A DNA stretch of 64,000 nt from Ignavibacteriota bacterium (GCA_016212665.1 JACREZ010000023.1:62001-126000); one strand, 5' to 3'; counted from the stretch's first letter, positions 9,244-62,764 are shown. Numbers and translations are program-made. The notes: generated by a model from the sequence alone, not told the origin.

Positions 9244-9660
9244 ATGACTAAAATATTTCTCTCTTTGTTTGTTCTCATTTTGATTTCATTTTCAAGTCAA
9301 GTCTGTATAGCCCAGCACGATGATTCATCAAAAAATAAATCTCCCGAAAAGAAGTACGACATGAAAACTTACTACATGGTTTTCCTGAAAAAGGGACCGA
9401 ATCGTGACCAGGACTCAGTGACGGCGGCGAAGATTCAGGAAGGACACCTTGCGAACATCGGACGACTTGCAGAGTTAGGAAAGATTGCCATCGCCGGACC
9501 GTTCTTAGATGAAGGAGACGTTCGCGGAATCTTCATCATGGATTGCAGTTCGAAGGAAGAAGCGGACTCGCTTTGTCAGACCGACCCGGCTGTGAAAGCA
9601 GGAAGACTGAAAGCGGAAGTGCGTCCGTGGATGAGCGCACGAGGAGCGAAACTACCGTGA
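9244..9660 (+). CDS. Secreted YciI-like domain protein
   Basis: A 138-residue protein with a clear signal peptide (MTKIFLSLFVLILISFSSQVCIAQ). It is followed by a short polar linker and a YCII-related domain: YYMVFLKKGPNRDQD, then HLANIGRLAELGKIAIAGPF and the EADSLCQTDPAVKAGR segment. YciI proteins are small dimeric alpha/beta-barrel proteins with a conserved His-Asp pair that may be catalytic. H in GHLANI and D in QTDPAV are present here. Exported versions are common in Bacteroidota and their substrate is unknown. The stop codon TGA is itself the beginning of a 7-nt-phased repeat array. Confidence 0.8.
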   Translation: MTKIFLSLFVLILISFSSQVCIAQHDDSSKNKSPEKKYDMKTYYMVFLKKGPNRDQDSVTAAKIQEGHLANIGRLAELGKIAIAGPFLDEGDVRGIFIMDCSSKEEADSLCQTDPAVKAGRLKAEVRPWMSARGAKLP

Positions 9661-9692
9661 TTTGTGATTGGTGATTAGTGATTCGTGAATCA
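9658..9692 (+). repeat. 7-nt-phased degenerate array
   Basis: Five consecutive 7-base units of the form TGANTNR, for example TGATTTG and TGATTAG. The first three bases are the stop codon of the YciI-like gene. Phase is exact although the units differ from one another. Confidence 0.85.
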
Positions 9693-9778
9693 TTTAGTTT
9701 CAATCATTCCTTTCATATTGTATGTATTTCTTTGTTTCAAAAATATATTGCTAAATCTTACATCTCAAGTCATGAATC

Positions 9779-11014
9779 ATGAATAAACAAAAGACTCACC
9801 ACTCACGACTCACCACTCACGACTCACCTTTACAAGGAATTAAGGTTCTCGATTTAACGCGAATCCTTTCCGGTCCTTTCTGCACTATGAAGTTGGGTGA
9901 CATGGGTGCGGAAGTCATCAAGATTGAACAACCGGGGAAAGGGGACGACACTCGTTCGTGGGGACCGCCGTTCGTGAAAGGTGAGAGCGCGTATTTTCTC
10001 AGTGTCAACCGGAACAAGAAAAGCGTTACACTTGATTTGAAAGCGAAGGAAGGAAAAGAAATTCTCACAAAGCTCATCAAGTCGTGTGATGTGTTGGTGG
10101 AAAATTTCCGTGCGGGAGTGATGGAGAGTTTGGGATTTGATTACGCAAAAGCAAAAAAGTTAAATCCGAGACTTGTGTATTGTTCGATTTCCGGCTACGG
10201 ACAGACGAGCAGTCGCAGCCATCAACCGAGCTACGATTTGATTGTGCAGGGCGAATCGGGATTGATGGATGTAACGGGATTTCCTAACGGAGCGCCGACA
10301 AAAGCAGGAATTTCTCTCGCCGATGTTACGGCGGGAACACTTGCGTTCGAAGGAATTCTGCTTGCATTATTTCATCGAGAACGAACAGGGAAAGGTCAGC
10401 AAGTTGATATTAGTTTGCTCGATGGTTTGCTTTCGCTGTTCGCGTATCAATCGCAAATTGCACTTTCATCAGACAGAAAAGTGACACGCAAAGGAAATCG
10501 CCATCCGACTATTACGCCGTACGAAACGTTTGAGACGAAAGACGGATTCATCAACGTAGCCGTGGGAAGCGAATCTCACTGGAAGAATTTTTGTACAGCG
10601 ATCAAGCGAGATGATTTAATCCAACATGAACAATTTGCAACCAACTCGAAACGGGTTGAGAACCGCGAAGCGTTAGAGAACATTCTTGTTCCCATCATGA
10701 AATCAAAAAAGAGGAGTGAGTGGCTGAAGATTTTATTAAAGGCAGATGTTCCGGTGGGAAATATCAATTCACTTTCGGAAGCGTTGCAAATGGAAACGGT
10801 AGCCGAACGTGAGATGGTTGTAGCAGTGAAACACCCGGCTATCGGAACTTTGAAGATGGTTGGTAATCCCATCAAATTATCAACCACGAAGGACATCAAG
10901 CGCACGAAGTTTTCACCGCCGCCGTTGTTAAGTCAGCACACGAATGAAGTATTGGGGTTGCTTGGATATTCTGACTCCGACATTAACGAGTTGAAGCGAC
11001 ACAAAATAATTTGA
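9779..11014 (+). CDS. Class III CoA-transferase (CaiB/BaiF family)
   Basis: A 411-residue family III acyl-CoA:carboxylic acid CoA-transferase. The conserved core starts at PLQGIKVLDLTRILSGPF near residue 17 and includes GDMGAEVIKIEQPGKGDDTR, the SVNRNKKSVTLDLK block and VLVENFRAG. The catalytic aspartate of this family is expected in the segment around YDLIVQGESGLM. The first 16 residues (MNKQKTHHSRLTTHDS) match nothing in the family. They are encoded by five exact 7-base units of the ACTCAC(C/G) type at 9794-9828. Either translation really begins at 9779 and reads through the repeat, or an unusual start lies downstream; no good ATG is available after the repeat. The substrate cannot be read from the sequence. 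Confidence 0.88.
   Translation: MNKQKTHHSRLTTHDSPLQGIKVLDLTRILSGPFCTMKLGDMGAEVIKIEQPGKGDDTRSWGPPFVKGESAYFLSVNRNKKSVTLDLKAKEGKEILTKLIKSCDVLVENFRAGVMESLGFDYAKAKKLNPRLVYCSISGYGQTSSRSHQPSYDLIVQGESGLMDVTGFPNGAPTKAGISLADVTAGTLAFEGILLALFHRERTGKGQQVDISLLDGLLSLFAYQSQIALSSDRKVTRKGNRHPTITPYETFETKDGFINVAVGSESHWKNFCTAIKRDDLIQHEQFATNSKRVENREALENILVPIMKSKKRSEWLKILLKADVPVGNINSLSEALQMETVAEREMVVAVKHPAIGTLKMVGNPIKLSTTKDIKRTKFSPPPLLSQHTNEVLGLLGYSDSDINELKRHKII
9794..9828 (+). repeat. 7-nt-phased array inside the CoA-transferase N-terminus
   Basis: Five contiguous 7-mers alternating ACTCACC and ACTCACG. This is the most homogeneous heptamer array in the window. It is read as the non-homologous N-terminal peptide of the CoA-transferase. 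Confidence 0.9.
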
Positions 11015-11022
11015 ATTCGGCA

Positions 11023-14000
11023 ATGAACCTGCTACAACAGCACAGAGATAGATATTTGTTCAACATATTGCTCTGTGCTTTCCTTCTTTTGAATGTTTCA
11101 ACAGCCCAACTCCGTGAACCGTTTCTTCAACATATAACTGTCGAGGAGGGGCTTTCACAAAGTTCCGTCTATTGTATTCTTCAAGACAGGCAAGGATTTC
11201 TCTGGTTCGGCACCGGTGATGGATTGAACAAATATGACGGATACGAAATAACTGTGTATCGTCATCATCAATCTGACAAAAACTCCCTCTCCGATAATAC
11301 CATTCGGTCTCTTATGGAAGATAACGACGGGAATTTGTGGATTGGAACAAACGATGGATTGAATAAGTATGAACCCCGCACAGGAAAATTTTCCTTTTAT
11401 GATTTGAAAAATGTTGAATCATTGTTTCAGGATTCGAGGGGAACAATTTGGGCGAGCAGTTATCTCAGGTTATTACAATTCAATACGGACAAGAAGTTAT
11501 TTGAACCCTATGTATTTCCAACAACTCATCGGCAGATGATTGAACATCAGTCTGTGAAATCGCTCTTCGAGGATAAAAAGGGAAATATTTGGATGGGAAA
11601 ACTTGATGGCGTTGATGTTCTGGAAAAATCCGGTTCACTTCGATGTCTTTCCTCAACTCTGAACTCACTACTTGGAAATCAGTCTTACGTTAGCGCTATA
11701 GCAGAGACCCGGGAAGGCGATATTTGGTTCGCTACGATGGGCAAGGGTTTGTTCCGCATGAAACAGAACACGGAGGATGTTCAACAAATCAGCATCAACA
11801 ATTATTCTGATGTTCCCTCGAACGAACTGTTTGTTTCTTCCTTATTGTATGATGGGAAGAATACATTATGGATAGGAACGAAGAAGAGCGGAGTACTGAA
11901 GTACGATATTCAAACTGAGAAATTCTCGCGGCTTCTCGATGCTGATGGATATTCCGAATTGCTTACAACCTACGATAACCGATACATCATGGAAGACCGT
12001 TCAGGATTACTCTGGATTGGAACCGACGGCGATGGAGTGTATAAGTATGACCCGCGTCCGAGGAAATTCAAACATCTGTTTTCTGATGCGAGTAATAGAA
12101 ATTCTCTCAGCGGAAACTTTCTGAAATCAATCTATGAAGACAGGCGGCAACGCGTCTGGATTGGAACATACGAATATGGATTGACGATGTGGGACAAAAG
12201 GGATGATACTTTCAAACAATATTTGAACACAACGAACACAACAACCGGAAAAGGGGAAACAGTGTATGCTGTGACCGAGGATGCAGCCGGAACAATTTTC
12301 TTCGGAACGGAACGCGGACTGGCACGTTTCGACGAACGAACAGAAGAGGTAATATTTTTCTCCTATGGTGAAGGTATGCCAAACAAGAAAACTATTCATC
12401 TGCTTCCTTCGACCCACGGTTGGCTCTGGGCAACCGTGATATCGAATTTATACAAATACCGGAGAGAGACTAACGAACTTACGCCTGTAGTGTTTACGCA
12501 AGAGCGTTACCCTTCGATGAAGGGGGCGACTATCGTTTGCTTGTTTGAAGATTCGCATGGCATTCTCTGGTTTGGAACATACGATGGTGGTTTGAACAGA
12601 TACGACCCCACAAGTGAACAATGCACAACTTTTGTTCATGATAAAAATAATCTCAGTTCGTTGAGTCATAATGGAGTGAAAGTGATTTATGAATCACGAG
12701 ACGGATTGTTGTGGATTGGAACCGGGCACGGATTGAATACGTTCGAACAGGGGACGAGCACATTCACGCGCTACTTTGAGGAAGATGGATTGCCGAGCGC
12801 CTACATCTATGGAATTCTTGAAGACGGAAGTGGAAATCTCTGGCTTAGTACGAACAAAGGCATTTCGAAATTCAATCCGACCACAAAACAATTCAGAAAC
12901 TATGGTGTGGAAGACGGACTACAATCGAACGAATTTAATTCCGGTGCGTGTTTCAAAAATAGAAGCGGCGAAATGTACTTCGGCGGAATCAACGGCATGA
13001 ATGTTTTTCATCCCGATTCTGTGAGAGATAATCCTTCGTTGCCCAATATCGTTTTGACCGGCTACAAGAAACTTGATTTGCCGGTTGAAATGAATGGAGA
13101 AATATCAACGATGAATTCCATCGTGCTTGAGTATGAAGAGGGGATATTCTCTCTTCGGTTTGCCGCACTCGAATATTCAAACCCGGAGAAAAATCAGTAT
13201 GCGTACATTCTCGAAGGATTTGAACAGAACTGGGTGTACAGCGGAACTCGGCGTGAAGTCCGCTACACGCATCTCGACCCGGGTGAGTATGTGTTCCGGG
13301 TGAAAGGTTCCAACAACGATGGTGTTTGGAATGAAGAAGGATTTGCAATCACCGTGGTGGTTGTCCCACCGTTTTGGAGAACGTGGTGGTTTTTGAGTTT
13401 GACAGGAATCGTAGCATTGATTTCTGTCGGCGGAACAATTCGGTTTTTCGAGATGAGAAAAGTCCGCCGTCGGGTAGAATTCCTTGAGCGAGAGCGAGAG
13501 ATGGAACGCGAGCGTGCGCGCATCTCTCAGGATATGCACGACGAAATTGGCGCAAGTCTCACACAGATTGCAATCCTGAGTGAAATTGCGCGCCGCGAGT
13601 TAGATGACCGTTCTGCGTCGGAACGCCATCTCCAGAAAATATCCAACACCGCCCGCGGCGTCGTTGATAGCATCAGTGAAATTGTCTGGGCAATCAACCC
13701 GAAGAATGACAGTCTTGATAATCTCATTTCATTTATTCGCGAATACGCGGCTGGTTTATTTGAAGGAACGGAAACCCGTTGCCTGTTTTCCATTCCTGAT
13801 ACGATTCCGGTTGTAACTCTCTCCGGTGAACATCGAAGAAATATATTTCTTGTGGTGAAAGAATCGCTCAACAATATTATGAAACACGCGCAAGCGGGTG
13901 AAGTTCATCTTCGGTTCAGTTCAACAGTTGACACGTTTTCCATCGTCATTCAGGATAATGGCAAGGGATTTTGTATAAAAGAAATTTCCGTTTTCAGCAA

Positions 14001-14121
14001 TGGATTGAGTAACATGAAACGAAGAATGGAAAGCATCGGAGGGACATTTACCATTGAATCTATTCCACATGTTGGAACGATTGTGCAGGTTCACTTTAAG
14101 TTGAATGTGCATGAAAGTTAG
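11023..14121 (+). CDS. Reg_prop/Y_Y_Y sensor histidine kinase (HisKA_3 type)
   Basis: ATG 11023 is preferred to the TTG at 11011 that overlaps the previous stop. The 1032-residue protein has a signal peptide (residues 1-29). About a dozen two-component-regulator-propeller repeats follow (GFLWFGTGDGLNKYD, GNLWIGTNDGLNKYE, GLLWIGTDGDGVYKYD), forming a periplasmic double beta-propeller. Then come a Y_Y_Y domain (about 690-770) and one membrane span near 785-805. The kinase core has the HisKA_3 motif QDMHDEIGASLTQI with phospho-acceptor His839, followed by an HATPase domain (FLVVKESLNNIMKHAQ, DNGKGF). There is no receiver domain, so this is not a full hybrid. Its partner is the LuxR-type regulator 130 bp downstream. 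Such kinases often sense polysaccharides or peptides, but the ligand here is unknown. Confidence 0.93.
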   Translation: MNLLQQHRDRYLFNILLCAFLLLNVSTAQLREPFLQHITVEEGLSQSSVYCILQDRQGFLWFGTGDGLNKYDGYEITVYRHHQSDKNSLSDNTIRSLMEDNDGNLWIGTNDGLNKYEPRTGKFSFYDLKNVESLFQDSRGTIWASSYLRLLQFNTDKKLFEPYVFPTTHRQMIEHQSVKSLFEDKKGNIWMGKLDGVDVLEKSGSLRCLSSTLNSLLGNQSYVSAIAETREGDIWFATMGKGLFRMKQNTEDVQQISINNYSDVPSNELFVSSLLYDGKNTLWIGTKKSGVLKYDIQTEKFSRLLDADGYSELLTTYDNRYIMEDRSGLLWIGTDGDGVYKYDPRPRKFKHLFSDASNRNSLSGNFLKSIYEDRRQRVWIGTYEYGLTMWDKRDDTFKQYLNTTNTTTGKGETVYAVTEDAAGTIFFGTERGLARFDERTEEVIFFSYGEGMPNKKTIHLLPSTHGWLWATVISNLYKYRRETNELTPVVFTQERYPSMKGATIVCLFEDSHGILWFGTYDGGLNRYDPTSEQCTTFVHDKNNLSSLSHNGVKVIYESRDGLLWIGTGHGLNTFEQGTSTFTRYFEEDGLPSAYIYGILEDGSGNLWLSTNKGISKFNPTTKQFRNYGVEDGLQSNEFNSGACFKNRSGEMYFGGINGMNVFHPDSVRDNPSLPNIVLTGYKKLDLPVEMNGEISTMNSIVLEYEEGIFSLRFAALEYSNPEKNQYAYILEGFEQNWVYSGTRREVRYTHLDPGEYVFRVKGSNNDGVWNEEGFAITVVVVPPFWRTWWFLSLTGIVALISVGGTIRFFEMRKVRRRVEFLEREREMERERARISQDMHDEIGASLTQIAILSEIARRELDDRSASERHLQKISNTARGVVDSISEIVWAINPKNDSLDNLISFIREYAAGLFEGTETRCLFSIPDTIPVVTLSGEHRRNIFLVVKESLNNIMKHAQAGEVHLRFSSTVDTFSIVIQDNGKGFCIKEISVFSNGLSNMKRRMESIGGTFTIESIPHVGTIVQVHFKLNVHES

Positions 14122-14129
14122 TGTTGCTG

Positions 14130-14199
14130 GTTTTCAGTTTCCCGTTTTTGTTTATCATCAACGATCCGAAATTAACAATTCGAAATCCGCAATCAGGTG
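14130..14199 (+). repeat. 7-nt-phased degenerate array (10 units)
   Basis: Ten 7-base units in exact phase between the kinase and response-regulator genes. Early units are of GTTTNNN type (GTTTCCC). Later ones are of TTNNNAA/TCCGNAA type (TTCGAAA, TCCGCAA). The unit family changes along the array without loss of phase. Confidence 0.8.
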
Positions 14200-14252
14200 A
14201 AATACTACTTTCGTGTGATTGATTACCATCGGAAAATCATCTATCTTAAATC

Positions 14253-14879: not shown

Positions 14880-14911
14880 TTGGTTTTCGGTCATAGGGGG
14901 TAGGTAAGTTT
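14877..14911 (+). repeat. 7-nt-phased array starting on a stop codon
   Basis: Five 7-base units, mostly ending in GG (TGATTGG, TTTTCGG, and so on), whose first three bases are the TGA stop of the response regulator. Confidence 0.65.
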
Positions 14912-15059
14912 TTTATTACGAGACACGTTGTGTCGCCCTGGAACCTATTGCCTATCACATAAGAGAAAAATTACTACTAATATGCTATTGATAGCAAGCG
15001 TCCCCCGTTCTATATTGTGAGTAAAATTTTTTACCAAATTTTATCATCACAAAGTTATT

Positions 15060-16304: not shown

Positions 16305-16331
16305 AGGTCGTGTAAAAAATTGAAAGATGTG

Positions 16332-16365
16332 AAGCCGGTTCATAAGTGAGAATTGGCTTTTCTTT
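16332..16365 (+). terminator. Intrinsic terminator after the T9SS protein
   Basis: AAGCCGGTTC pairs with GAATTGGCTT (two G-T pairs) across an 8-base loop, followed by TTTCTTTTT. Confidence 0.6.
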
Positions 16366-16403
16366 TTGTCTCTCACGGAAGTTTCCTCTATATTCTCCCC
16401 GCT

Positions 16404-17045: not shown

Positions 17046-17046
17046 G

Positions 17047-17081
17047 GTTCCTGTTTCCGGTTTACAGTTTCCTGTTAAAGG
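17047..17081 (+). repeat. 7-nt-phased array
   Basis: Five 7-base units of TTTNCNG type (TTTCCGG, TTTACAG) starting two bases after the deoxynucleoside-kinase stop. Confidence 0.75.
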
Positions 17082-17101
17082 ACAAACTGGAAAGAATGAA
17101 C

Positions 17102-22136: not shown

Positions 22137-22148
22137 AAGGAATAAGTC

Positions 22149-25738: not shown

Positions 25739-26353
25739 ATGGATTACGTTCCAAAACCCGATCTGGGATTTCTCCAGTGGGGTGAAACATTCAACAAAAA
25801 CCTTGAACCGTATGAAGGACAACTTGGGATTACGGGCGAGGTAAAGACGCAGATTCAAAATCACTTAGATGGGGTGAAACTACGACTAAGTGAAGTTGAC
25901 GGTCAGAAAAAAACGTTGCAAGGATTGACGAAGTTGAAGAATCAGGTAGTCGCCGAGGCGAAACAATTCTTCAGAAATCTTGCCAACAAAATTAAAGCAC
26001 ACGATAGTTATACACCCGCCATCGGTGAAGCGTTAGGCATCGTCGGAGCGGAAGATACATCCATGCAATCCATCAACGATGCGATGCCGGAGTTCTGGCT
26101 CACCTTGCTCTCAGACCACATTCGTGTTGATTGGAAGAAGGGAATCTTTGATGGAGTGAAAATCAGGTGCAAGCGTGGAAATGAAATAACCTTTACTACG
26201 CTCGGTACAGACAATTATTCACCGTATGAAGATACACGGAAAAATCTTGTCGCCGGTGTGCCGGAAATGCGTGAGTATGAACTCATATATATGTTAGACG
26301 ATAAAGAGGTTGGCAAGCCATCAGCAGTGAAGAATATCGTGTGTAATCTGTAA
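25739..26353 (+). CDS. Conserved hypothetical protein of the Y-x-P-K-x-D...W family
   Basis: A 204-residue soluble protein with a clear ribosome site (AAGAGGAAATC). It begins MDYVPKPDLGFLQWGETFNKN. It has a helical middle part with a coiled-coil tendency (residues 30-100) and an Ig-like C-terminal half ending with SPYEDTRKNL, PEMREYELIYMLDDKEVG and a terminal strand. I recognise this layout from uncharacterised roughly 200-residue proteins that recur in Bacteroidota and related genomes, often in several copies. I know no assigned function. The gene sits between two inverted copies of a hairpin repeat (25425 and 26366). The stop codon falls inside a 7-nt-phased triplet of units (26343-26363). 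Confidence 0.75.
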   Translation: MDYVPKPDLGFLQWGETFNKNLEPYEGQLGITGEVKTQIQNHLDGVKLRLSEVDGQKKTLQGLTKLKNQVVAEAKQFFRNLANKIKAHDSYTPAIGEALGIVGAEDTSMQSINDAMPEFWLTLLSDHIRVDWKKGIFDGVKIRCKRGNEITFTTLGTDNYSPYEDTRKNLVAGVPEMREYELIYMLDDKEVGKPSAVKNIVCNL

Positions 26354-26363
26354 TCTGTATTAA
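26343..26363 (+). repeat. Short 7-nt-phased array over a stop codon
   Basis: Two identical GTAATCT units and a third related one. The TAA stop of the preceding gene lies inside the second unit. Confidence 0.6.
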
Positions 26364-26365
26364 CA

Positions 26366-28316: not shown

Positions 28317-28393
28317 TGATTGGTGAGTAGTGAATAGTTAGTAGTAATTAGTGATGTTGGTCTGAAACACAAAACACAAAACTCAAACCCGAA
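28317..28393 (+). repeat. 7-nt-phased array (11 units) abutting uvrA
   Basis: Eleven units in exact phase. It begins with TGANTAG-type units (TGAGTAG, TGAATAG), changes to TTAG types, and ends with AACACAA and AACTCAA types. The last unit ends one base before the uvrA ATG at 28395. Confidence 0.85.
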
Positions 28394-31232: not shown

Positions 31233-31242
31233 TGAGCATATG

Positions 31243-31318
31243 TGCGACTCACTTGCCCATGAATTGTTTGACAAATCCCGACATTTTGTTTGCATTTGAA
31301 AGAGAAGTGAGTCGCACC
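31243..31318. repeat. REP-like hairpin element, left of the RAYT gene
   Basis: A perfect 13-bp inverted repeat, GTGCGACTCACTT (31243-31255) and AAGTGAGTCGCAC (31306-31318), encloses 50 bases. The same element is present to the right of the transposase gene at 32010-32086 in the same orientation, and the enclosed sequences are also alike. Confidence 0.92.
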
Positions 31319-31390: not shown

Positions 31391-31969
31391 ATGCTTCGTA
31401 AAGTTATCTTCGCACAAGACGAATATTACCACATCTATAATCGTGGTTGCAACCGGGAAAATATATTTCTGTCGGATGAAAATTACCGTTTTCTTCTGAG
31501 AAACCTTAAATCGTTGGTTGAAGAATATAATGTTTGTGTAATAGCATACTGTCTCATGCCCAATCATTATCACTTTCTGCTCAGACAAGATGGTGAGAAA
31601 AACTCGGGTAAACTCATTCAGTTTCTCTTCAACAAATACACGAAGGCATTTAATGCAATGCATAAACGAACCGGAACATTGTTTGAGGGTCCATTCAAAG
31701 CAATTCATGTTGACAAGCAGGAGTACTTGATACACCTCTGTCGTTATATTCATCGTAACCCTCTCGAGGCGGGATTAGTTGCAAACATCGAAGATTGGGA
31801 ATACACAAATTATTTGGAATGGATTGGAAAACGAAAAGGGATGTTATGGGATAAAGAATTTGTCAATGATAATTTTAGAACGGCGGAAGAGTACAAAAAA
31901 TTTGTTCTTGAATATATTTCTCCTAAAAAGTTGGAGGAGGAATGGAGGAAATACAGAATAGAACGATAG
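31391..31969 (+). CDS. REP-associated tyrosine transposase (RAYT, Y1/IS200-like)
   Basis: A 192-residue single-domain HUH-type transposase. Motifs: HIYNRGCNRENIF near the N-terminus, CLMPNHYHFLLRQ with the metal-binding His-x-His pair, then FNAMHKRTGTLFEGPFKAI and LCRYIHRNPLEAGLV, which together define the TnpA-REP/RAYT group of Y1 transposases. RAYTs are domesticated single-copy relatives of IS200 transposases that bind and nick REP hairpins. They usually sit between REP elements, as this one does (hairpins at 31243-31318 and 32010-32086). The frame is intact. There is no partner tnpB and no insertion-sequence left/right end structure beyond the hairpins. Confidence 0.93.
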   Translation: MLRKVIFAQDEYYHIYNRGCNRENIFLSDENYRFLLRNLKSLVEEYNVCVIAYCLMPNHYHFLLRQDGEKNSGKLIQFLFNKYTKAFNAMHKRTGTLFEGPFKAIHVDKQEYLIHLCRYIHRNPLEAGLVANIEDWEYTNYLEWIGKRKGMLWDKEFVNDNFRTAEEYKKFVLEYISPKKLEEEWRKYRIER

Positions 31970-32009: not shown

Positions 32010-32086
32010 GTGCGACTCACTTTCCCTTGAAAGATTTTACAAATCTTGACCTTTTATATTACTTTTGAAGGAGAAGTGAGTCGCAC
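32010..32086. repeat. REP-like hairpin element, right of the RAYT gene
   Basis: The same perfect 13-bp arms as the left copy (GTGCGACTCACTT at 32010-32022 and AAGTGAGTCGCAC at 32074-32086), with a 51-base spacer related to that of the left copy (shared ACAAATC, TTGAC/CCGAC, TTTTGAA/TTTGAA words). Confidence 0.92.
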
Positions 32087-34447: not shown

Positions 34448-36031
34448 TTATTTTTTCTCGACTCGTTTCAAGTCCAACTCCTTGAAATCGAAATCGAAGT
34501 TGGGAATGTCAATCTTCAACTCGGTGACGTTTCCTTTTGCATCGAGGAGAAACTGAGCGAATCCTTTGCCGAAAGGATAATTCATTGGGCGGACAGTTGC
34601 GCGAAAAGTATCGAAGTGCCAATGTTCAAGGTCGGCGACGAGATTTTCCGTCGGGTTGAACGTTACGACGAGTTTCTTATTCTCGACCGAAACGGTAACA
34701 TCGCCGTACAACTCACCCGAATATGTTCCTGCATATCTCTCCAATGCCAGTGATGGCTTGGTTCCTTTCACACGAGAAGAGTCCAGCTTTTTCTCTTCTT
34801 CAATTTTGAGTGAGTCGTTATCGTGTTTATCTTTGAGATTACGCGCGTTCCAATCAATCTTTGAAACTCCGAGAAACACATCAACAACTTTCCGTGTGAT
34901 GATTGAAGAAAGCGACGTCTCGCTGTTCGTCAGAACGACCACGCCCAGACTTTCTTCGGGACAAAGAATAATACGCGAAATCATCCCATCAATTGCGCCG
35001 CTGTGACTGAGAAGTTTTCGTCCTTCATAATCGCTCATGCCCCAGCCGAGTCCGTAGCCCTGAAAATGAATTGAAGGAAACAATTTTTCGGATTGCTCGC
35101 TTACGCCGACCGGCGTATGAACAGTCCACATTGTGCGGGATGTTTGCTTGCTGAATAGTTCCTTGCCGTTGAATGTGCCGCGTCCAAGTTGAAGTCGCAT
35201 CCACTGAGCCATATCATGCGCTGATGAATTGATTGCGCCTGCGGGTCCGAGTTCTTCGTTCGGAAAATGCTTGACGACTCGTAATGCGTTTTGATATTCA
35301 TTGTGTGGCGTTGCAATGTTCTCTGCCGCCATCAGTTCGGCAAGCGAAGTATTGGTTCGTGACATTCCCAGCGGTTGAAAAATCCGTTCACGCACAAACG
35401 CTTCCCAACTTTTTCCTGTCACCGAAGGAATAATTTCTCCCGCCGCCACGAACATGATGTTTTGATACCCGTATGTTGTTCTGAAACTCGAAGTCGGTTT
35501 CAAATACTTCACGCGACGAAGCACTTCTTTCCTGTCATACTTCGTCCAGTACCAAACAAGGTCGCCGCCGAATGTTGCAAGTCCGCTCCGGTGACTGAGC
35601 AAATCACGCACCTGCATTTCTCTTGTCACCCACGAGTCATACATTTGAAAATCAGGAAGATGTTTGATGGCTGCATCGTCCCATTTTATTTTTCCTTCAT
35701 CAACTAACATGGCGAGCGAAGCGGAAGTAAATGCTTTGCTGAGCGAAGCAATGGCAAACAGTGTGTGTTCATCAACGGGAGTTTCTCTTCCCATCTCACG
35801 AACGCCGTATCCTTTTTCTAACCAGATTGAATCGTTCTTCACTATCGAAACAGCACAGCCGGGAACGTTCCAATCCTTCTGCGCTTGCTTAATGTATGAT
35901 TCGATTTCTCTGAGTTTTGCTTCATCGGATGATTGGGCAAAGAGTGTAAGGGATGTGAGAAGAAGGAGAATGATGTGAGTTTTGAGATGTGAGATATGAG
36001 GCATCATGGGGCGATTTGGTTTGTTATTCAT
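34448..36031 (-). CDS. Exported class C beta-lactamase-fold serine hydrolase
   Basis: A 527-residue protein with a signal peptide (IILLLLTSLTLFAQS). The catalytic motifs are SxxK in FAIASLSKAFTSA, Y-x-N in TYGYQNIMFV and H-x-G in LLSHSGAIDGM. These place it with class C beta-lactamase/DD-peptidase/esterase proteins. The C-terminal 120 residues (ERYAGTYSGELYGDVTVS) form a DUF3471-type lipocalin-like domain often found in such hydrolases. Beta-lactam resistance should not be assumed; peptidase or esterase roles are at least as common. The first 12 residues (MNNKPNRPMMPHISHLKTH region) are coded partly by 7-nt-phased units at 35974-36008, and a downstream start is possible. Confidence 0.88.
   Translation of the reverse strand: MNNKPNRPMMPHISHLKTHIILLLLTSLTLFAQSSDEAKLREIESYIKQAQKDWNVPGCAVSIVKNDSIWLEKGYGVREMGRETPVDEHTLFAIASLSKAFTSASLAMLVDEGKIKWDDAAIKHLPDFQMYDSWVTREMQVRDLLSHRSGLATFGGDLVWYWTKYDRKEVLRRVKYLKPTSSFRTTYGYQNIMFVAAGEIIPSVTGKSWEAFVRERIFQPLGMSRTNTSLAELMAAENIATPHNEYQNALRVVKHFPNEELGPAGAINSSAHDMAQWMRLQLGRGTFNGKELFSKQTSRTMWTVHTPVGVSEQSEKLFPSIHFQGYGLGWGMSDYEGRKLLSHSGAIDGMISRIILCPEESLGVVVLTNSETSLSSIITRKVVDVFLGVSKIDWNARNLKDKHDNDSLKIEEEKKLDSSRVKGTKPSLALERYAGTYSGELYGDVTVSVENKKLVVTFNPTENLVADLEHWHFDTFRATVRPMNYPFGKGFAQFLLDAKGNVTELKIDIPNFDFDFKELDLKRVEKK
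35974..36008. repeat. 7-nt-phased array at the N-terminus of the serine hydrolase
   Basis: Units of T-NTGAG-N type on the + strand (TGTGAGT, TGTGAGA and related). On the minus strand they are read as PHISHLKTH. Confidence 0.65.
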
Positions 36032-39476: not shown

Positions 39477-39560
39477 ACTTGATGTGCGATACTTGATGCT
39501 GGATGCTCGTTTTATCACATTCATAGTTATCAATTGACCGTTCACAATTGACAATTTTCT
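39477..39560 (+). repeat. 7-nt-phased array (12 units)
   Basis: Twelve 7-base units in phase, starting one base after the YceI-TPR stop. Early units are ACTTGAT and GCTGGAT. Late ones are ATTGACC, GTTCACA and ATTGACA. Unit identity drifts along the array. Confidence 0.75.
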
Positions 39561-39622: not shown

Positions 39623-39820
39623 TTAGAGAACTGAAACGTTCGCAGCCTGAAATCCTTTCGGACCTTTCTCGACATCGAACTCTACCTTATCACCCTCGTT
39701 GAGAGTTTTAAGTCCGCCGGAGAGAGCTTTGTAATGAACAAAGACATCTTCGCCATTGGGACGTGCGATAAAGCCGAAGCCTTTAACTGTGTTAAACCAT
39801 TTGACTGTTCCTGTTTCCAT
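39623..39820 (-). CDS. cspA: Cold-shock domain protein
   Basis: A 65-residue single cold-shock domain that binds single-stranded RNA or DNA. RNP1 is KGFGFI and RNP2 is VFVHY. It starts [17 protein letters not shown], with an AAAGGT ribosome site upstream. The 350-bp region upstream of the start (39821-40172) contains no other gene apart from a 7-nt-phased array at 40073-40156. A long 5' leader, as known for cold-shock genes, would fit there, but I could not identify a promoter with confidence. Gene symbol by family only. Confidence 0.93.
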
Positions 39821-40072
39821 GGAACGACCTTTCTTAATTGTATTGTAAAAGTGTACGCCGCAGTTCTGTGTTAGTAGTAAATATCAATCATTGACGATTG
39901 AAAGTGCTGGTGACCGACTTGTACCGTGAAAGGTGTTAGAGGTAACTTGAGCAGGGTTCAAAAAGCGTTTAAATGCTGAAAATTTAACAAAACGTCAGTT
40001 GGACATAACGGTGTACTGTTATTTGACGCACAAACATACACATATCTTTCCTCAATACCAAACTGTCTTAGT

Positions 40073-40156
40073 CATTGGTCATTTGTTATTGGTGATTTGT
40101 GAGTAGTGAGTAATAATCTTCAATCTTGAATCAGAAATCAGAATTCAACATTCAGC
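40073..40156. repeat. 7-nt-phased array (12 units), clearest drift
   Basis: Exactly 84 bases, twelve 7-mers. The family moves stepwise from CATTGGT through GATTTGT and GAGTAGT to AATCTTG, AATCAGA and ATTCAGC without a single phase break. Confidence 0.9.
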
Positions 40157-40172
40157 AATGGGGAATCACTTA

Positions 40173-41396
40173 TCACCGATGACCTACATCCTTCATTCTG
40201 TAATAAGAGAACACTCCGAACGCCCGCGCCGCTTCGCCTTGTGCATGAACGGTTCCGACAGCACCAACGTTGTAGCCGTCTTCTCCGCCGTGCGGGTTCC
40301 AACCGTTGCGGATTGCATGGTCGGCTTCTCGGTGAAGTGTAAGCGATGCGTTGCCCTGATTGTTCGTCCAAACATGTTCAAGCATCGTTTCGATTTTCGG
40401 AAGGAGGTCGTGTAAACTATCCGGAGCGATGGAATAACCATCAAGCAGGAAATTGACAAACGCTCCGTTTCCGTCCATGTGGATTTGATAGAAATCGCCT
40501 CCATCTACCCAACCTGTTGTTGGGTCCATAATTCTCCGTGCTGTTTCAATGACAATATGTTTGTACTTTTCATCATTTGTTACGCGGTAGAGCGCGCCTG
40601 CAATCGAACAAAACTCCGTTCCATTCCACGGAATTTGTTTTCCGAACGCGGCAAGCCCCGGCGCACCTTCCCATTTGCCATTTCCTTTGTACAATGTCTT
40701 TTCGATGCCGGGAAATTTTTTATCGCCGTTCCAGACAAGAAGCGCATCGTCAAGGAATTGTTTTTCTCCGGTTGCTTCAAATAAATAACATGCAACTGTC
40801 GCCATCTGGTTCATGTTGCTGTTGGTGAAGATGCGTTCGTTCACACGATGTTGCGGTGCCCAGTTGTACCAACTCCAGAATCCTTCATGATTCGAGAGTC
40901 GCCCTTCCGCTTTTGCTTCGAGGTATCTCTGCTTTGCATCTGCGACAAGCCATCCATATTGTTTGCCCGTGAAGTTCCACCAAATCAATTCCGCGAGAGC
41001 TACCCACGCGCGGTCATCAACCCACGTACCGACACACATCTTTCGCATGTCATGCTCATACAAATGAAATCGAAGGAGCGAAGAATCATTTGTTGCTTTG
41101 AATAAGTACGCGTCGCCGATAGCGCCGTACGCGCCTTCCCAACACGGAGTATAGACTTGATGGAAACGAACGGACACTAACTTTGCACGCTCAAGCCATA
41201 TATCGGTTTGCGGTTTCGGGTTTGTAGTTTGGGGGATTGTGTGATTAGTGAATTGTGATTGGTCTTTTTGGTTGAGAAAAAAGAAATAGAAGAGCAGGAA
41301 CAGAACAGAGAAAGTTCCACCCATTATGTAAATAGATTTCCGGTGTGGCTTTTTTCTTTCCGTTTGATGCTGTTTTGATGTGCGTTTCGGTGACAT
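40173..41396 (-). CDS. Membrane-anchored (alpha/alpha)6 glycoside hydrolase, GH76-like
   Basis: A 407-residue protein. A basic N-terminus is followed by one transmembrane helix (about 24-42, YIMGGTFSVLFLLFYFFF), a short linker, and a helical-repeat catalytic domain. The domain shows DDRAWVALAELIWWNFTGKQY (an Asp-Asp pair as in GH76 alpha-1,6-mannanases), NEFCS/NGTEFCSIAGALY, then VDGGDFYQIHMDGNGAFVNFL. The layout fits the six-hairpin fold of GH76 and related families, but I cannot prove the family or substrate from the sequence. The linker SQFTNHTIPQTTNPKPQTD is coded by 7-nt-phased units (41204-41259). It is probably a periplasmic carbohydrate enzyme tethered to the inner membrane. Confidence 0.6.
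   Translation of the reverse strand: MSPKRTSKQHQTERKKPHRKSIYIMGGTFSVLFLLFYFFFLNQKDQSQFTNHTIPQTTNPKPQTDIWLERAKLVSVRFHQVYTPCWEGAYGAIGDAYLFKATNDSSLLRFHLYEHDMRKMCVGTWVDDRAWVALAELIWWNFTGKQYGWLVADAKQRYLEAKAEGRLSNHEGFWSWYNWAPQHRVNERIFTNSNMNQMATVACYLFEATGEKQFLDDALLVWNGDKKFPGIEKTLYKGNGKWEGAPGLAAFGKQIPWNGTEFCSIAGALYRVTNDEKYKHIVIETARRIMDPTTGWVDGGDFYQIHMDGNGAFVNFLLDGYSIAPDSLHDLLPKIETMLEHVWTNNQGNASLTLHREADHAIRNGWNPHGGEDGYNVGAVGTVHAQGEAARAFGVFSYYRMKDVGHR
41204..41259. repeat. 7-nt-phased array inside the GH76-like gene
   Basis: Eight 7-base units in phase, from CGGTTTG and GGGTTTG types to TAGTGAA and TTGTGAT types. They encode the linker between the membrane anchor and the enzyme domain. Confidence 0.85.
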
Positions 41397-43641: not shown

Positions 43642-43661
43642 GCACGTGAGTAATAGAGAAA

Positions 43662-43701
43662 TGGAATGATGGAGTGATGGAGTTGTGGAGTGACGGAGTG
43701 C
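43662..43701 (+). repeat. 8-nt-phased tandem array
   Basis: Five 8-base units of TGGAGTGA type (TGGAATGA, TGGAGTTG and similar). It looks like the heptamer arrays but with a period of eight. Confidence 0.8.
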
Positions 43702-46994: not shown

Positions 46995-47047
46995 GTTAAA
47001 ATTCCTATAGCTAATTTTGGTGATGAAAATAATAAGAAGCGCGCAGA

Positions 47048-47103
47048 GTTTCAAGTTTACAGTTTCCGGTTTTCAGTTTCGCGTTTGTCGTTCTGGGTTG
47101 TTC
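47048..47103. repeat. 7-nt-phased array (8 units)
   Basis: Eight consecutive units all beginning GTT, such as GTTTACA, GTTTCCG, GTTTGTC and GTTCTGG, in exact phase. Confidence 0.88.
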
Positions 47104-56100: not shown

Positions 56101-56152
56101 GGCAGTTTCAAAAATTATGTGTGGTCATTTATGAAGTATGTGAAGCGGCGGC

Positions 56153-56851: not shown

Positions 56852-56865
56852 AGTTACTCCTTCTC

Positions 56866-57987: not shown

Positions 57988-58100
57988 TGTGTTTCCTTTT
58001 AATTGAATGCTACAATACATAGTGCATAAAAAACGAAATTTTCTGAAAAGTTCGGGTGATTGTTCTCACCGTGCTTCATGCAACGGAACAGGAAGCGAAA

Positions 58101-59417
58101 TCAAAAACTCGCGATATCATTATAAATCACAAACGCCATAAAAGCAAGAAGCAGAACAAATCCGACTTTTTGAATTCCTAACTTCACTTTCAATGGAATT
58201 TCCCGGCGCGTAATCTTTTCATAAATCATCAGCGTCAGATGTCCGCCATCGAGCGCGGGAATCGGGAGAATGTTCAGCACGGCGAGCGAGACGCTGAGCA
58301 TTGCCATGAACGTGAGAAAACTTCCGAGTCCGTACTCGGCAGATTGCGTCGCCATCTGTGCGATGCGAATCGGACCGCCGAATGATTCTTTCACCGTTGC
58401 TTTCCCGAAAATAATATTTCCCACCGATTGAATTATCAAATCAACAACCCGAACGACTTCCCGCACACCCTGTCCCATCGCCTCGAAGAACGAATATTCA
58501 ATCCGCTTCGATGGTCCTGTGTACATTCTTCCGATGCTGATGCCGATGCGTCCCGATTCGTTCACCGTCACTGCGCCGGAATACGTTGAGTCTTTCCGCT
58601 TCCATTCGACGTTGAGCGTGTTGTTCGCGTTGGCGCGGATGATTTTTATGATTTGATGGTCGGAATAAATTTTTGTCTCATTGATTGCCGTAATAACATC
58701 GCCCGGTGCAAGCCCCAATTTCTCGGCGGGTTTGCCAAGTTCGACTGCCTGAATAACCGGTACAGTAAACGCTTCAACGATACCGATTCCGTCACGGAGG
58801 GTATCATTTGGGTTGATTGCAGAGACCATCAACATTTGCTGACTTCCCGAACGCTGAACCGCAATCTGTAAATCTTTCCCGATGTTATCAAGATAGACTG
58901 CATCGTTCACTTCTCCCCAATGTGCAACATTCTTTCCGTTCACCGAGATAATCTTATCGCCGATTTGAAATCCTGCTTGCGCGGCGGCGCTTTCTTCAAC
59001 AACGTATCCGACTTCCGTTGTCTCTTCGATGTACTTCCCGCGTGAATAATGAATTCCCCAGAAAATTCCGATTGCGAGGAGAAGATTCATAATCACTCCG
59101 GCGGAAATGACAATCGAACGCATCCACAACGGCTTTGCGCGAAACTCCCATGGTTGTACCTGAGCGTTCGCGAACTCCGTATCAAAACTTTCGTCCACCA
59201 TGCCTGCGATTTTCACATAGCCGCCGAGCGGAAGCCACGAGATGCAATAATCTGTCTCACCGATTTTTTTCCCGAACGCACGCGGCGGAAATCCGATGGA
59301 GAAAACGTCCACTCTCATCCCTGTCAGTTTTGCGGCGATGAAGTGTCCGAACTCGTGAATGAATACTAACACTCCGAGCGTAATACCTGTGTATAAAATT
59401 GTGTTCAAAAAATCCAT
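58101..59417 (-). CDS. rseP: Site-2 protease RseP
   Basis: A 438-residue intramembrane metalloprotease. His21, Glu22 and His25 in VFIHEFGHFIAAKL are the HExxH motif. Two PDZ domains follow (AGFQIGDKIISVNGKNVAH; LGLAPGDVITAINETKIYS). The third metal site lies in the last membrane region (NILPIPALDGGHLTLMIYE). RseP cleaves anti-sigma factors and leftover signal peptides in the membrane. It sits downstream of dxr with 9 bases between, the common dxr-rseP order. ECF sigma/anti-sigma pairs elsewhere in the window (61367-62748) are possible substrates, by inference. Confidence 0.96.
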   Translation of the reverse strand: MDFLNTILYTGITLGVLVFIHEFGHFIAAKLTGMRVDVFSIGFPPRAFGKKIGETDYCISWLPLGGYVKIAGMVDESFDTEFANAQVQPWEFRAKPLWMRSIVISAGVIMNLLLAIGIFWGIHYSRGKYIEETTEVGYVVEESAAAQAGFQIGDKIISVNGKNVAHWGEVNDAVYLDNIGKDLQIAVQRSGSQQMLMVSAINPNDTLRDGIGIVEAFTVPVIQAVELGKPAEKLGLAPGDVITAINETKIYSDHQIIKIIRANANNTLNVEWKRKDSTYSGAVTVNESGRIGISIGRMYTGPSKRIEYSFFEAMGQGVREVVRVVDLIIQSVGNIIFGKATVKESFGGPIRIAQMATQSAEYGLGSFLTFMAMLSVSLAVLNILPIPALDGGHLTLMIYEKITRREIPLKVKLGIQKVGFVLLLAFMAFVIYNDIASF

Positions 59418-59426
59418 AGTTTCTTT

Positions 59427-60581
59427 TTATTTGATTGATGAAAGAACAAACGCACGCGCTTGTTTGTCCGCTTCAATGATTGCTTCGAGCGATGCGTTCG
59501 TCTCGTGCGGAACCGAATCCAACGCCTGTTCGATGAGTTGTGGAATTTGTGTGAAGCGAATTTGCTTCTTCAAAAATAAATCCACTGCGACTTCATTCGC
59601 CGCGTTGAGAATTGCCGGTGCAGTTCCGCCTTGCTTCAATGCCTGATACGCAAGATTCAAACACGGAAACTTCTCCGTGTCCGGTTCAAAGAATGTCATT
59701 TCGCGGAGTTGGGCAAAATCCACACGCGGGTGCGGAGCGGGCAATCGTTCGGGATACGTGAGCGCGTACTGAATCGGAATTTTCATATCAGGGACGCCGA
59801 GTTGCGCCTTCACCGAACCGTCCACAAACTCCACCATCGAATGAATGATGGATTGCGGATGAATCACCACGTCAATCTTTTCCGGCGGAAGATTGAACAG
59901 CCAGTGGGCTTCAATCACTTCAAGACCTTTGTTCATCATCGTTGCCGAGTCAATGGTGATTTTGTTTCCCATGTTCCAGTTCGGATGTTTCAACGCATCT
60001 TCCACCCGAATAGTTTCAAACTTCGATTTGTCGAGATGAAGGAACGGTCCGCCCGATGCCGTGAGAATCAATTTGGAAATATGCCGGGCGTCTTCTCCCG
60101 ATAAACATTGAAGAATAGCACTGTGTTCGCTATCTACAGGAACAAGTGTCGAGTTATACTCTTTTAATAGAGCCGTAATCAACGCGCCTGCAACAACGAG
60201 CGTTTCCTTGTTTGCCAGCGCAATTGTTTTTCCTTGTTTGATTGCTTCAATGGTCGGCTTCAATCCCGCAAATCCGACGAGCGAATTAATGACGATGTCG
60301 CTCGTTTCAATTTGCACAAGTTCCTGCAATCCGTTTTCGCCTACGAACAACTCCACCGAACCATTGAGCCGTTGTTTAAGCGATGCCGCTGCAGATTCAT
60401 TCATCACACCAACGCGCTCCGGTTTGAATCTCGCAATCTGCTCTTCAAGTAGAGCAATGTTTGAATTGGTTGTGAGAGAAGTCGGACGGAAACGCTCAGG
60501 AAACCGGGCAATCACTTCGAGACTGTTTTTCCCAATCGAGCCTGTCGAGCCGAGGATGCAAATATTCTTTGTTTTACCCAT
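59427..60581 (-). CDS. dxr: 1-deoxy-D-xylulose-5-phosphate reductoisomerase
   Basis: The first committed step of the MEP isoprenoid pathway, NADPH- and metal-dependent. 384 residues, normal length. Motifs: NADPH-binding ILGSTGSIGKNSLEV, ALANKETLVVAG, metal/substrate sites in PVDSEHSAILQCL and LTASGGPFL, the flexible-loop HPNWNMGNKITIDSATMMNK and GLEVIEAHWLF, and IIHSMVEFVDGSVKAQLG. All key segments are intact. The gene is immediately upstream of rseP. Confidence 0.97.
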   Translation of the reverse strand: MGKTKNICILGSTGSIGKNSLEVIARFPERFRPTSLTTNSNIALLEEQIARFKPERVGVMNESAAASLKQRLNGSVELFVGENGLQELVQIETSDIVINSLVGFAGLKPTIEAIKQGKTIALANKETLVVAGALITALLKEYNSTLVPVDSEHSAILQCLSGEDARHISKLILTASGGPFLHLDKSKFETIRVEDALKHPNWNMGNKITIDSATMMNKGLEVIEAHWLFNLPPEKIDVVIHPQSIIHSMVEFVDGSVKAQLGVPDMKIPIQYALTYPERLPAPHPRVDFAQLREMTFFEPDTEKFPCLNLAYQALKQGGTAPAILNAANEVAVDLFLKKQIRFTQIPQLIEQALDSVPHETNASLEAIIEADKQARAFVLSSIK

Positions 60582-60701
60582 TAAAAAGCATAATCCCCTT
60601 CAAATGTTCGAAGAGGACAGAAACAAGGTACAGAAATCTTGAGAGGATTGCAAAGGGAAAAACGATGTGTGGATTGTAAAGTAAACTTGAAAACTCAAAT
60701 A

Positions 60702-60932
60702 CTAAAGTCTGCTCCACTCTTCAAGAGAGATTTCCTTTTCTGTGATAGATTCAATTTCATTCATCATCATTCGTAACTGTGGAATTGTGTATTCAGCATT
60801 GGAAGGAATAGCAAGACGATGATGGTTGAAAAGCATAAACTGATGCTTGGTTCCGCTGTATGGTCCCTCGAAACCGAGACGACGAAGTCGCCTGATAAAA
60901 TCCTGTCGTTTACAAGGCGCCCACCGGCTCAA
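60702..60932 (-). CDS. hicA: HicA-type toxin with a non-ATG start
   Basis: A 76-residue HicA mRNA interferase-like protein (RWAPCKRQDFIRRLRRLGF, then YSGTKHQFMLFNHHRLAIPS, which carries the catalytic His). The frame is open from TTG 60956. TTG 60932 has an AAGGA site eight bases upstream and fits the short family N-terminus better. Both choices overlap the end of hicB. The start lacks ATG or GTG, which is unusual; low-level initiation would limit toxin production. HicA degrades mRNA in a dsRNA-binding-fold toxin-antitoxin pair. Confidence 0.82.
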   Translation of the reverse strand: MSRWAPCKRQDFIRRLRRLGFEGPYSGTKHQFMLFNHHRLAIPSNAEYTIPQLRMMMNEIESITEKEISLEEWSRL

Positions 60933-61182
60933 GTTCAGGTTCCTTGTTGAGGTCAAGGTTATTGATGACGGGCAACGGATGACGTAATTTTAGACCAAGA
61001 AGAATCCATTCTTCAAGCGTCGAACGTAAATCATTCTCACATTCTTTGAGTGATTTCCCAAACGCTATTACTCCTTTGCACAGAGGAATTCTTCCGCTAT
61101 ATGAATTATCTTCGAGTTTGTCGTAGAGCGCCATTGCCATTGCCTGCTCAATATACTCGCTGAGGATATATGTTGTCGTCAT
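60910..61182 (-). CDS. hicB: HicB-type antitoxin
   Basis: A 90-residue HicB-like protein with the partial RNase-H-fold segment YSGRIPLCKGVIAFGKSLKECENDLRS. It has no C-terminal ribbon-helix-helix or HTH extension, so it is the short HicB form. It is encoded upstream of hicA (HicB-HicA order) with an overlap of 23 bases to the TTG 60932 start. The proteins would form the toxin-antitoxin complex. Confidence 0.85.
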   Translation of the reverse strand: MTTTYILSEYIEQAMAMALYDKLEDNSYSGRIPLCKGVIAFGKSLKECENDLRSTLEEWILLGLKLRHPLPVINNLDLNKEPELEPVGAL

Positions 61183-61366
61183 AGTTGTTTGAAAATTGCA
61201 GAACTAACATAGAGAACTAAAAAGAATTTTCCAAGAATATCCACCGTTGCCCGACACCCTGCGACCCCTAACTTTGAAGTCACCAAGTCATTTCCAATAT
61301 TCCTGTAACCTTTCAGCCCATACTGAGTTTATTAGATAACGGATCCTTCAACTATTTCGATACTTT

Positions 61367-61915
61367 GTGAGTTTTTCATCGGATACTCAAATTATGATAC
61401 AGGTTCGGGACGGCGAGTTGCATAAGCTCGCACTCTTGTTCGAGCGGCATCATGTCGCTCTCTATAATTATTATGTTCGGCAAACTGGCGACCGCGACCT
61501 TAGCGAAGATTTCGTGCAGGAAGTGTTTCTCCGCATCATGAAATACCGCCACACGTTTCGCGGCGAAGGGGAGTTTCTTCCGTGGATGTATCACATCGCC
61601 CGCAATGTGCAGATTGACCACGCACGGAAATGGGGACGGGAAACAAAACTCGATAAAGAAACACACGACCAAATCGGTGACGACCCGATTCCCGACGCAC
61701 ACGTCGAGCAATTGCAAAATGTCGGTATGTTGCAAAAAGCACTCGCAAAACTATCGCCGGAAAAACGGGAAGTGTTACTCCTCAGCCGCTATCAGGAAAT
61801 GAAATATACCGCCATTGCAGAACTGCTTGGCTGTACGGTTGAAGTGGTCAAGGTTCGTGTTCATCGTGCGATGAATGATTTGAGAAAATATTATTTCCAA
61901 CTTGCAGGAGAATGA
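61367..61915 (+). CDS. ECF-type RNA polymerase sigma factor
   Basis: A 182-residue sigma factor. GTG 61367 gives the complete frame; ATG 61394 (MIQVRDGELHKLALLF) is an alternative. Region 2 is SEDFVQEVFLRIMKYRHTF and EFLPWMYHIARNVQIDHARK. Region 4 is LSPEKREVLLLSRYQEMKYT with AIAELLGCTVEVVKVRVHRA. The next gene encodes its anti-sigma factor with a 4-base ATGA overlap, so both are translationally coupled. The downstream DUF4097-type envelope genes are the probable regulon core. Confidence 0.93.
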   Translation: MSFSSDTQIMIQVRDGELHKLALLFERHHVALYNYYVRQTGDRDLSEDFVQEVFLRIMKYRHTFRGEGEFLPWMYHIARNVQIDHARKWGRETKLDKETHDQIGDDPIPDAHVEQLQNVGMLQKALAKLSPEKREVLLLSRYQEMKYTAIAELLGCTVEVVKVRVHRAMNDLRKYYFQLAGE

Positions 61916-62748
61916 CTATGAACAACAATCATATAAAAGAATACTTGCTTGAATACATCAACAACAATTTGGACACACCAACGGAAACATCGGTGCAACA
62001 ACATCTTGCCTCGTGCGAACCATGCAGGAAAGAATATGAATTGCTGAACACGTGGTGGACTGCGCTCGAACAACTTCCGAATGAAAAACCATCGGAAGAA
62101 GTACGCGAAAAGTTTTACAAAGTGTTGCAGGAAGAAATAGAAGCGACACTACGGTTGAAAACATACGCGCATCAAAAGCCGAAACGAAATTGGCTCGAAT
62201 TTCTTTTCCCGCAACAGGTTGCAGGACGATTTGCTTTTGCACTCGTCCTCATCGTTCTCGGCGGTTTCGTTGGCTACGTGATGAAGCAAGAGCCGCAGAT
62301 TGTTCAGACCGAAAACAAAACAGAATTAACACAACTTCACGAAGAAGTGATGATGATGAACCGACTGTTGACGGTATCGCTTCTTCAACAGCAATCTGCA
62401 AGCGAGCGTTTGAAGGGCGTCAGTTTGAGCTACCGTTCCGAAGGATCCGACCCGGAAATCACGGCGGCGCTTCTTCAGGCGCTCAAATATGACCCGAATG
62501 TCAATGTACGTCTTGCCGCGCTCGATGCGCTCGTTCGAAATGACGGGGAACAGACAATCAAAAAGGAATTACTCGAATCGCTTCCCAAACAATCTTCGCC
62601 GCTCGTGCAGATTGAAATCGTGGATTGGCTCATTCAGGTACGAGAAAAAACATCGCTCAACATTCTCAATCGGATGTTGAACAATCCTGATGTAAATAAA
62701 GCGGTCAAGGAACGGATAGAGTTGGGGATTCAGGAGATGAACTCTTGA
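61912..62748 (+). CDS. Anti-sigma factor with zinc-finger and HEAT-like region
   Basis: A 278-residue membrane protein. The N-terminal anti-sigma domain has the zinc motif H-x3-C-x2-C in VQQHLASCEPCRKEYE. A transmembrane helix lies at about 104-122 (FAFALVLIVLGGFVGYV), and the C-terminal periplasmic part contains HEAT-like helices (LLQALKYDPNVNVRLAALDAL; LVQIEIVDWLIQVREKT). The domain pair fits signal-controlled release of the cognate sigma factor 61367. HEAT repeats in this position are less usual and may bind a periplasmic partner. Confidence 0.88.
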   Translation: MTMNNNHIKEYLLEYINNNLDTPTETSVQQHLASCEPCRKEYELLNTWWTALEQLPNEKPSEEVREKFYKVLQEEIEATLRLKTYAHQKPKRNWLEFLFPQQVAGRFAFALVLIVLGGFVGYVMKQEPQIVQTENKTELTQLHEEVMMMNRLLTVSLLQQQSASERLKGVSLSYRSEGSDPEITAALLQALKYDPNVNVRLAALDALVRNDGEQTIKKELLESLPKQSSPLVQIEIVDWLIQVREKTSLNILNRMLNNPDVNKAVKERIELGIQEMNS

Positions 62749-62764
62749 CAATTCAAAATTCAAA
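62744..62764 (+). repeat. Short 7-nt-phased array over a stop codon
   Basis: Three units, one containing the TGA stop of the anti-sigma gene and then two ATTCAAA copies. Confidence 0.55.

Follow-up and report, generated by a model that had tools for sequence, protein, structure and literature searches.

Arrays with a seven-nucleotide period in a Bacteroidota genome: unit structure, preferred direction and candidate origins

The window analyzed here is a 64,000-nt stretch of DNA, positions 62001–126000 of contig C23 in a genome (G000) of 3.91 Mb assembled in 45 contigs. The nearest relatives of the UvrA protein encoded in the window are found in Bacteroidetes and Ignavibacteria MAGs (54–66% identity), and the host was placed in Bacteroidota. 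Tandem arrays were scored locally (+1/-1.5) at a single lag, with shuffled sequence as the control, and segments scoring at least 11 were taken as arrays. Tandem Repeats Finder was also run; it and the lag score each find most of the 14 heptameric loci listed in the first-pass annotation, of which about 11 or 12 stand. The strong loci (shuffle p about 0.005 or less) are 9657–9691, 9770–9827, 26342–26359, 28317–28387, 40068–40157, 47047–47092 and 62750–62779, and the moderate ones (p 0.0025) are 17048–17076, 35976–36000 and 41204–41231. Loci 39477 (p 0.015) and 16093 (p 0.02) are weak by the shuffle comparison, while the lag-7 scores at 14130 (p 0.09) and 14877 (p 0.17) were no better than those of shuffled sequence and fall within chance.

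The first array (9657–9691, plus strand) is GT-rich, comprises five units of GTGATT followed by T, G, A or C, and spans the stop codon of a YCII gene. It is faced by an AC-rich array (9770–9828, with the core GACTCACC at 9793–9828) that is GT-rich on the minus strand and sits within the 5′ end of a CoA-transferase ORF (9779–11014). The core lies among the first codons of this ORF and, with the ATG at 9779 taken as the start, encodes THHSRLTTHDS. The N-terminus of the CoA-transferase is, by eye, seven codons longer in G000 than in G002, which together with G001 represents sister species of the same genus. A second facing pair lies upstream of uvrA and consists of a GT-rich plus-strand array of GTGAGTA, GTGAATA and GTTAGTA units (28317–28355) and, immediately upstream of the gene, an AC-rich AAACACA array (28365–28387) that is GT-rich on the minus strand. 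In the third pair, the plus-strand units GTCATTG, GTCATTT, GTTATTG, GTGATTT, GTGAGTA and GTGAGTA (40068–40112) are faced by the AC-rich array AATCTTCAATCTTGAATCAG (40115–40157), again GT-rich on the minus strand.

The remaining arrays are distributed along the window. A GTTTCCN-type array (17048–17076, plus strand), located between two gene 3′ ends, is also found in G002 with one unit altered. The short TGTAATC array at a gene end (26342–26359, plus strand) has only 2.6 units, and the corresponding place in G002 carries no repetition. The array GAGATGTGAGATATGAG (35976–36000, plus strand) is kept in G002, and CAATTGACCGTTCACAATTGACAATT (39531–39556) is almost identical there. The plus strand also carries GGTTTGCGGTTTCGG (about 41204–41234) and, at a gene start, AGTTTCAAGTTTACAGTTTCCGG (47047–47092). 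The last array, AATTCAAAATTCAAAATGAAAAA (62750–62779), lies at a gene end and is GT-rich on the minus strand.

The scan of G000 covered 1.61 Mb of its 3.91 Mb, taken in stretches. It revealed 230 arrays at lag 7, compared with 2 and 12 at the shorter lags 5 and 6 and with 37 and 10 at the longer lags 8 and 9, while shuffled sequence gave a single segment at lag 7 and 1–3 at the lags tested. The numerous segments at lags 14 (146) and 21 (104) are harmonics of lag 7. Within the window, 8 segments reached the threshold at lag 7 versus 0–1 at lags 4–6 and 8–13. An excess at lag 7 was likewise present in G001 and G002, in G016, a member of another family (74 segments, with 4 and 7 at the flanking lags 6 and 8), and among loci from other Bacteroidota (39 versus 0–11 at other lags). 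Heptameric arrays at many loci, as first described from the window alone, are therefore real, with lag 7 far above lags 6 and 8. The accompanying claim that their phase never slips was too strong: there is a true 8-nt class (for example TGGAGTNN and CTACTCAN), represented in the window by the plus-strand array ATGGAGTG (43648–43700) as a minor class, and the period switches between 8 and 7 inside arrays L112 (10552–10639) and L097 (14679–14755).

In a typical unit about four (three or four) positions hardly vary, one is fairly constant and one or two are free. The sorted column conservation was.99,.98,.95,.90,.77,.65 and.51, versus.97,.91,.82,.72,.64,.57 and.48 under chain copying at a uniform rate. 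The proportion of 464 transitions to 790 transversions indicates that the free columns are near saturation. Each unit is most similar to its neighbor: identity falls from 0.79 through 0.74, 0.71, 0.66 and 0.59, reaching 0.53, over distances 1–8, and the profile becomes nearly flat when the order of units is permuted. Words thus shift stepwise along an array. The high divergence of units had been thought to exclude slippage, but similarity that falls with distance, as if each unit were copied from its neighbor and then altered, does not uphold this.

Recurrent words on the GT-rich strand are GTCATTN, GTGATTN, GTGAGTN, GATTTCG, GTTTCCN, GATATGN and GAGTTTT, and the overall composition of this strand is T 0.45, G 0.25, A 0.20 and C 0.10. 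No single motif is common to all of the 230 G000 arrays. The words do differ from locus to locus, as noted in the first-pass annotation, but each of the 230 arrays has a unit in common with another array when sharing is scored up to rotation and strand. Neither directional base drift along the arrays nor a difference between their inner and outer ends in homogeneity or composition was found. A G-quadruplex basis was rejected, this motif being present in only 2 of the 230 arrays, which do not belong to the G4 subtype of the Xanthomonas and Nostoc repeats.

About three quarters of the arrays are intergenic, although genes cover 82% of the sequence according to our own, approximate gene calls. 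Arrays adjoin gene starts and gene ends alike. Where two G000 arrays are less than 300 nt apart, the GT-rich array precedes the AC-rich one in 29 cases and follows it in 3; the same order prevails in other genomes (14 versus 2) and is independent of gene direction. Lone arrays also show a preference, with the GT-rich strand pointing outward from the nearer gene in 48 cases versus 21 (p 0.0016, on the approximate gene calls). The GT-rich strand therefore tends to run 5′ to 3′ away from the nearest gene, a rule that is statistical and not absolute. Background strand composition was rejected as its source, since intergenic flanks devoid of arrays have almost no skew (GT fraction 0.51–0.52 versus 0.47–0.50).

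The comparisons for this genome are with sister species. Most of the coding DNA matched between G000 and G002 is about 80–88% identical at the nucleotide level. Most of the compared G000 arrays are already in place in G002. At 40068 the unique flank before the array is nearly identical in the two genomes, while the units differ one by one and the alignment contains a 7-nt gap; at 28317 the G002 units are wholly different heptamers. Both species also have the facing pair L200/L231, but its length differs between them and the alignment includes a gap of 21 nt. The arrays at 9657 and 9794 are absent from G002 together with the preceding YCII gene. Orthologous arrays thus hold their position and period while their units turn over between species. 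At the fourfold sites of uvrA the two genomes are only 60% identical, and over this distance a period lacking renewal would be expected to decay; continuing renewal or selection is therefore required.

A change by one whole unit was seen between near-isogenic Providencia plasmids, in which (TTTGTTA)n is repeated 11 or 12 times while the 700 bases compared contain 0 mismatches. This array comes from a phylum other than that of the host and is itself nearly perfect. A megablast search with the Nostoc plasmid region C052, made to find another strain, returned only the self-match. The dominance of lag 7, the one-unit plasmid difference and the ortholog gaps of 7 or 21 nt agree with the earlier proposal of a process with a 7-nt step.

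The reading that we favor, tentatively and at somewhat less than even confidence, is that these simple-sequence repeats are resident and mostly intergenic, and that slippage in 7-nt steps, templated by the array itself, makes them lengthen and turn over where they stand. It is favored because of the lag-7 excess, the decaying unit identity, the uneven conservation of columns, the directional counts for facing and lone arrays, the orthologs that hold position and period while their units change, and the one-unit difference between plasmids. A new unit would be a copy of the adjacent one, with a step of 7 nt or, rarely, 8 nt; changes would gather at one or two tolerant columns, three or four columns remaining fixed. 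The length of the step may be set by the primer duplex that a putative DNA polymerase needs past the slipped loop. In PMC4692102 the over-representation of heptamers is credited to a 2007 survey, whose idea, as cited there, was that the step reflects the segment of DNA touching the polymerase. The preferred direction could arise if the GT-rich strand grows at its 3′ end, as gap filling or repair synthesis comes in from both flanks of the intergenic region. Taken alone, this 3′-extension account of direction is doubtful, and one-ended growth has left no direct trace, because the inner and outer ends of arrays are alike. Counting against the favored reading as a whole are the gaps between G000 and G002 orthologs that are not multiples of 7, the statistical nature of the direction, the likeness of the two ends of an array, and the plasmid example, which is from another phylum and nearly perfect.

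The near-fixed columns could instead reflect selection on words. The arrays might then be functional: a regulator, protein or RNA, with a 7-nt reading step would use them as binding sites or as leader or trailer elements, and selection would hold the fixed columns and the spacing. The near-fixed columns, three or four in each unit, and the retention of orthologous positions are in line with such a role, and MacGregor proposed a translational function for the TAACTGA repeats that lie immediately before start codons (PMC4679880). However, there is no word common to all arrays, units have been swapped wholesale at the same place between sister species (28317), no Rfam family matches were found in the window, and the arrays adjoin gene ends as well as gene starts. 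A functional origin is judged unlikely.

Facing pairs could also represent the two arms of stem-loops, shaped by hairpin-driven template switching or by selection for the stem. The facing order (29:3) suggests this, as do the 70–75 facing pairs reported in Xanthomonas (PMC4692102). Neighboring arrays are complementary locus by locus in G016 (p 0.0016), in G001 and G002 (p 0.0024) and in other Bacteroidota (p 0.004), and locus-specific complementarity appears in G000 when all neighboring pairs at a lower threshold are considered (p 0.006–0.008). In the GT-then-AC pairs of G000, however, complementarity between partners does not exceed that with other arrays (p 0.46; p 0.17–0.70). Stem-loops therefore occur, yet leave the direction in G000 unexplained: lone arrays keep the outward direction, and a hairpin by itself does not set which arm is GT-rich. 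As an explanation, hairpins seem rather improbable.

A broader proposal is that in array-rich bacteria an as yet unrecognized process other than reverse transcription extends extragenic 3′ ends by copying the last seven bases at a time with tolerated error at set positions, so that GT-rich strands grow outward from the flanking genes. It would then also lie behind the heptamers of Xanthomonas, Nostoc and Bacteroidota. We regard this as distinctly unlikely.

Healing of broken ends, in which a dedicated enzyme would add 7-nt GT-rich repeats to 3′ ends before joining, in the manner of interstitial telomeric repeats or DRT10, predicts GT-then-AC order, non-complementary arms and free columns, as in G000. 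Bacterial DRT10 is known to synthesize tandem-repeat DNA by telomerase-like repeat addition (PMC12632851). In the G000 genome, 99.65% complete, neither reverse transcriptase (RVT_1, PF00078, at E 0.001) nor Ku (PF02735) was matched, and neither family tracks the number of arrays over 60 relatives; a telomerase-like reverse transcriptase and Ku end joining were both rejected on these grounds. Moreover, a fixed RNA template would not yield drifting words, and most of the compared arrays were already present in G002. End healing is very improbable.

The gene-content correlations over the 60 relatives were stratified by family only, and the array counts in these genomes were obtained by adding the matches of a single degenerate pattern to those of its reversed form, used as control, and not by a full lag scan. 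On this basis, the number of arrays correlates more closely with the number of Y1 transposase genes (Y1_Tnp; Spearman 0.63, p 8e-8; partial correlation 0.58 given DDE_Tnp_1; family-stratified permutation p 0.0005 or less) than with that of DDE_Tnp_1 genes. Spread of the arrays as mobile or REP-type elements by Y1 (REP-associated tyrosine) transposases nevertheless has the least to commend it, because array density near Y1 genes is the same as elsewhere (1.44 versus 1.43 per 10 kb, with 0 arrays within 800 nt of 22 genes), the Y1 gene of the window bears its own, different palindromes, G009 has arrays and no Y1 match, and units differ by locus, unlike copies of a single element. Y1 transposases were thus rejected as the direct agent, and the correlation is read as reflecting a shared condition, perhaps tolerance of extragenic repeats. 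PolX (PF14791) was rejected for lack of correlation with array number over the same relatives, and so was DinB (PF00817), which is weakly associated with it (p 0.007, ignoring kinship) and absent from the array-bearing genomes G003, G011 and G034.

Small intergenic repeats of several kinds resemble these arrays. Like REP/BIME palindromes with their RAYT transposases, the arrays are small, intergenic and inverted, and Y1 gene number tracks their number; unlike them, they lack a conserved palindrome and Y1 adjacency and are 7-nt periodic. TAACTGA direct repeats, known from Beggiatoaceae, Cyanobacteria and some Bacteroidetes (MacGregor, 2015; PMC4679880), are also intergenic heptamers, show 7-nt indels between Cyanothece strains and are often mixed with other heptamers. 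They have one dominant unit and in the BOGUAY genome lie mostly just upstream of start codons, whereas G000 has many units, at gene starts and ends; the exact TAACTGA unit is found in 1 of the 230 G000 arrays (L110, 10513–10538) and is not dominant here. Cyanobacterial STRRs are heptameric too, a likeness judged by period. The word GTCATTG/GTCATTA also occurs on Nostocaceae plasmids (L211, L212 and L213); these plasmid stretches hold very few arrays, too few for direction counts.

The closest counterparts are the (GGGANTN)n repeats of Xanthomonas and the GGGGA(C/T)T repeats of Nostoc PCC 7120 (Rehm et al., 2015; PMC4692102). For Xanthomonas, and in part for Nostoc, an excess of heptamers, units that vary, facing pairs and a position next to genes have already been described, so the view that known heptamer repeats have conserved units only is not upheld. 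G000 shares with this type a period of 7 far exceeding neighboring periods, fixed and free positions within the unit, mostly intergenic location, facing pairs and outward lone arrays (48:21). It differs in its many words, their drift along the array, the rarity of G-quadruplex motifs (2/230) and facing pairs that are often non-complementary. No earlier description of the many-word drifting form, of neighbor inheritance or of a direction rule without G-tracts was found in the open literature, to which the search was confined. The reason why bacterial intergenic repeats prefer seven bases is an open remark in the literature, and hundreds of many-word arrays allow step, direction and neighbor inheritance to be separated from any one sequence, such as a G-quadruplex. 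In Xanthomonas and Nostoc, too, the array lies near an ORF on its 5′ side (PMC4692102). The same direction rule with different words in three groups, these two and Bacteroidota, points to a common generating process, which makes clear predictions for a slippage assay; the pattern thereby narrows the possible origins of a kind of repeat that is known yet unexplained.

The number of heptamer arrays in the 60 relatives compared correlates with that of Y1 transposase genes (Spearman 0.63), yet the arrays do not lie close to these genes. A Y1 transposase of the REP-associated type is encoded on the plus strand of the window (31391-31969), with near-identical palindromes, GTGCGACTCACTT...AAGTGAGTCGCAC, located on either side of the gene (at about 31242-31317 and 32010-32086). 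Further copies of this palindrome are present at several other sites within the 1.61 Mb of the genome read.

Arrays with an eight-nucleotide unit, TGGAGTNN, form a minor class alongside the 7-nt arrays and are located at window positions 43648-43700 and at 17005-17162 of L091, a stretch numbered separately from the window.

The array CAATTGACCGTTCACAATTGACAATTTTC (39528-39557) has an almost identical counterpart in the sister species G002 of the same genus, with matches at three sites spaced 82 nt on contig C449. The YCII-domain gene (9244-9660) is absent from G002 between the equivalent neighbour genes.

A small gene is encoded on the minus strand (39623-39820), and the stretch upstream of it, 39830-40062, is nearly identical in G002, against an identity of only about 84% for coding DNA. 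An Rfam search returned no match for this stretch, which is possibly a structured leader.
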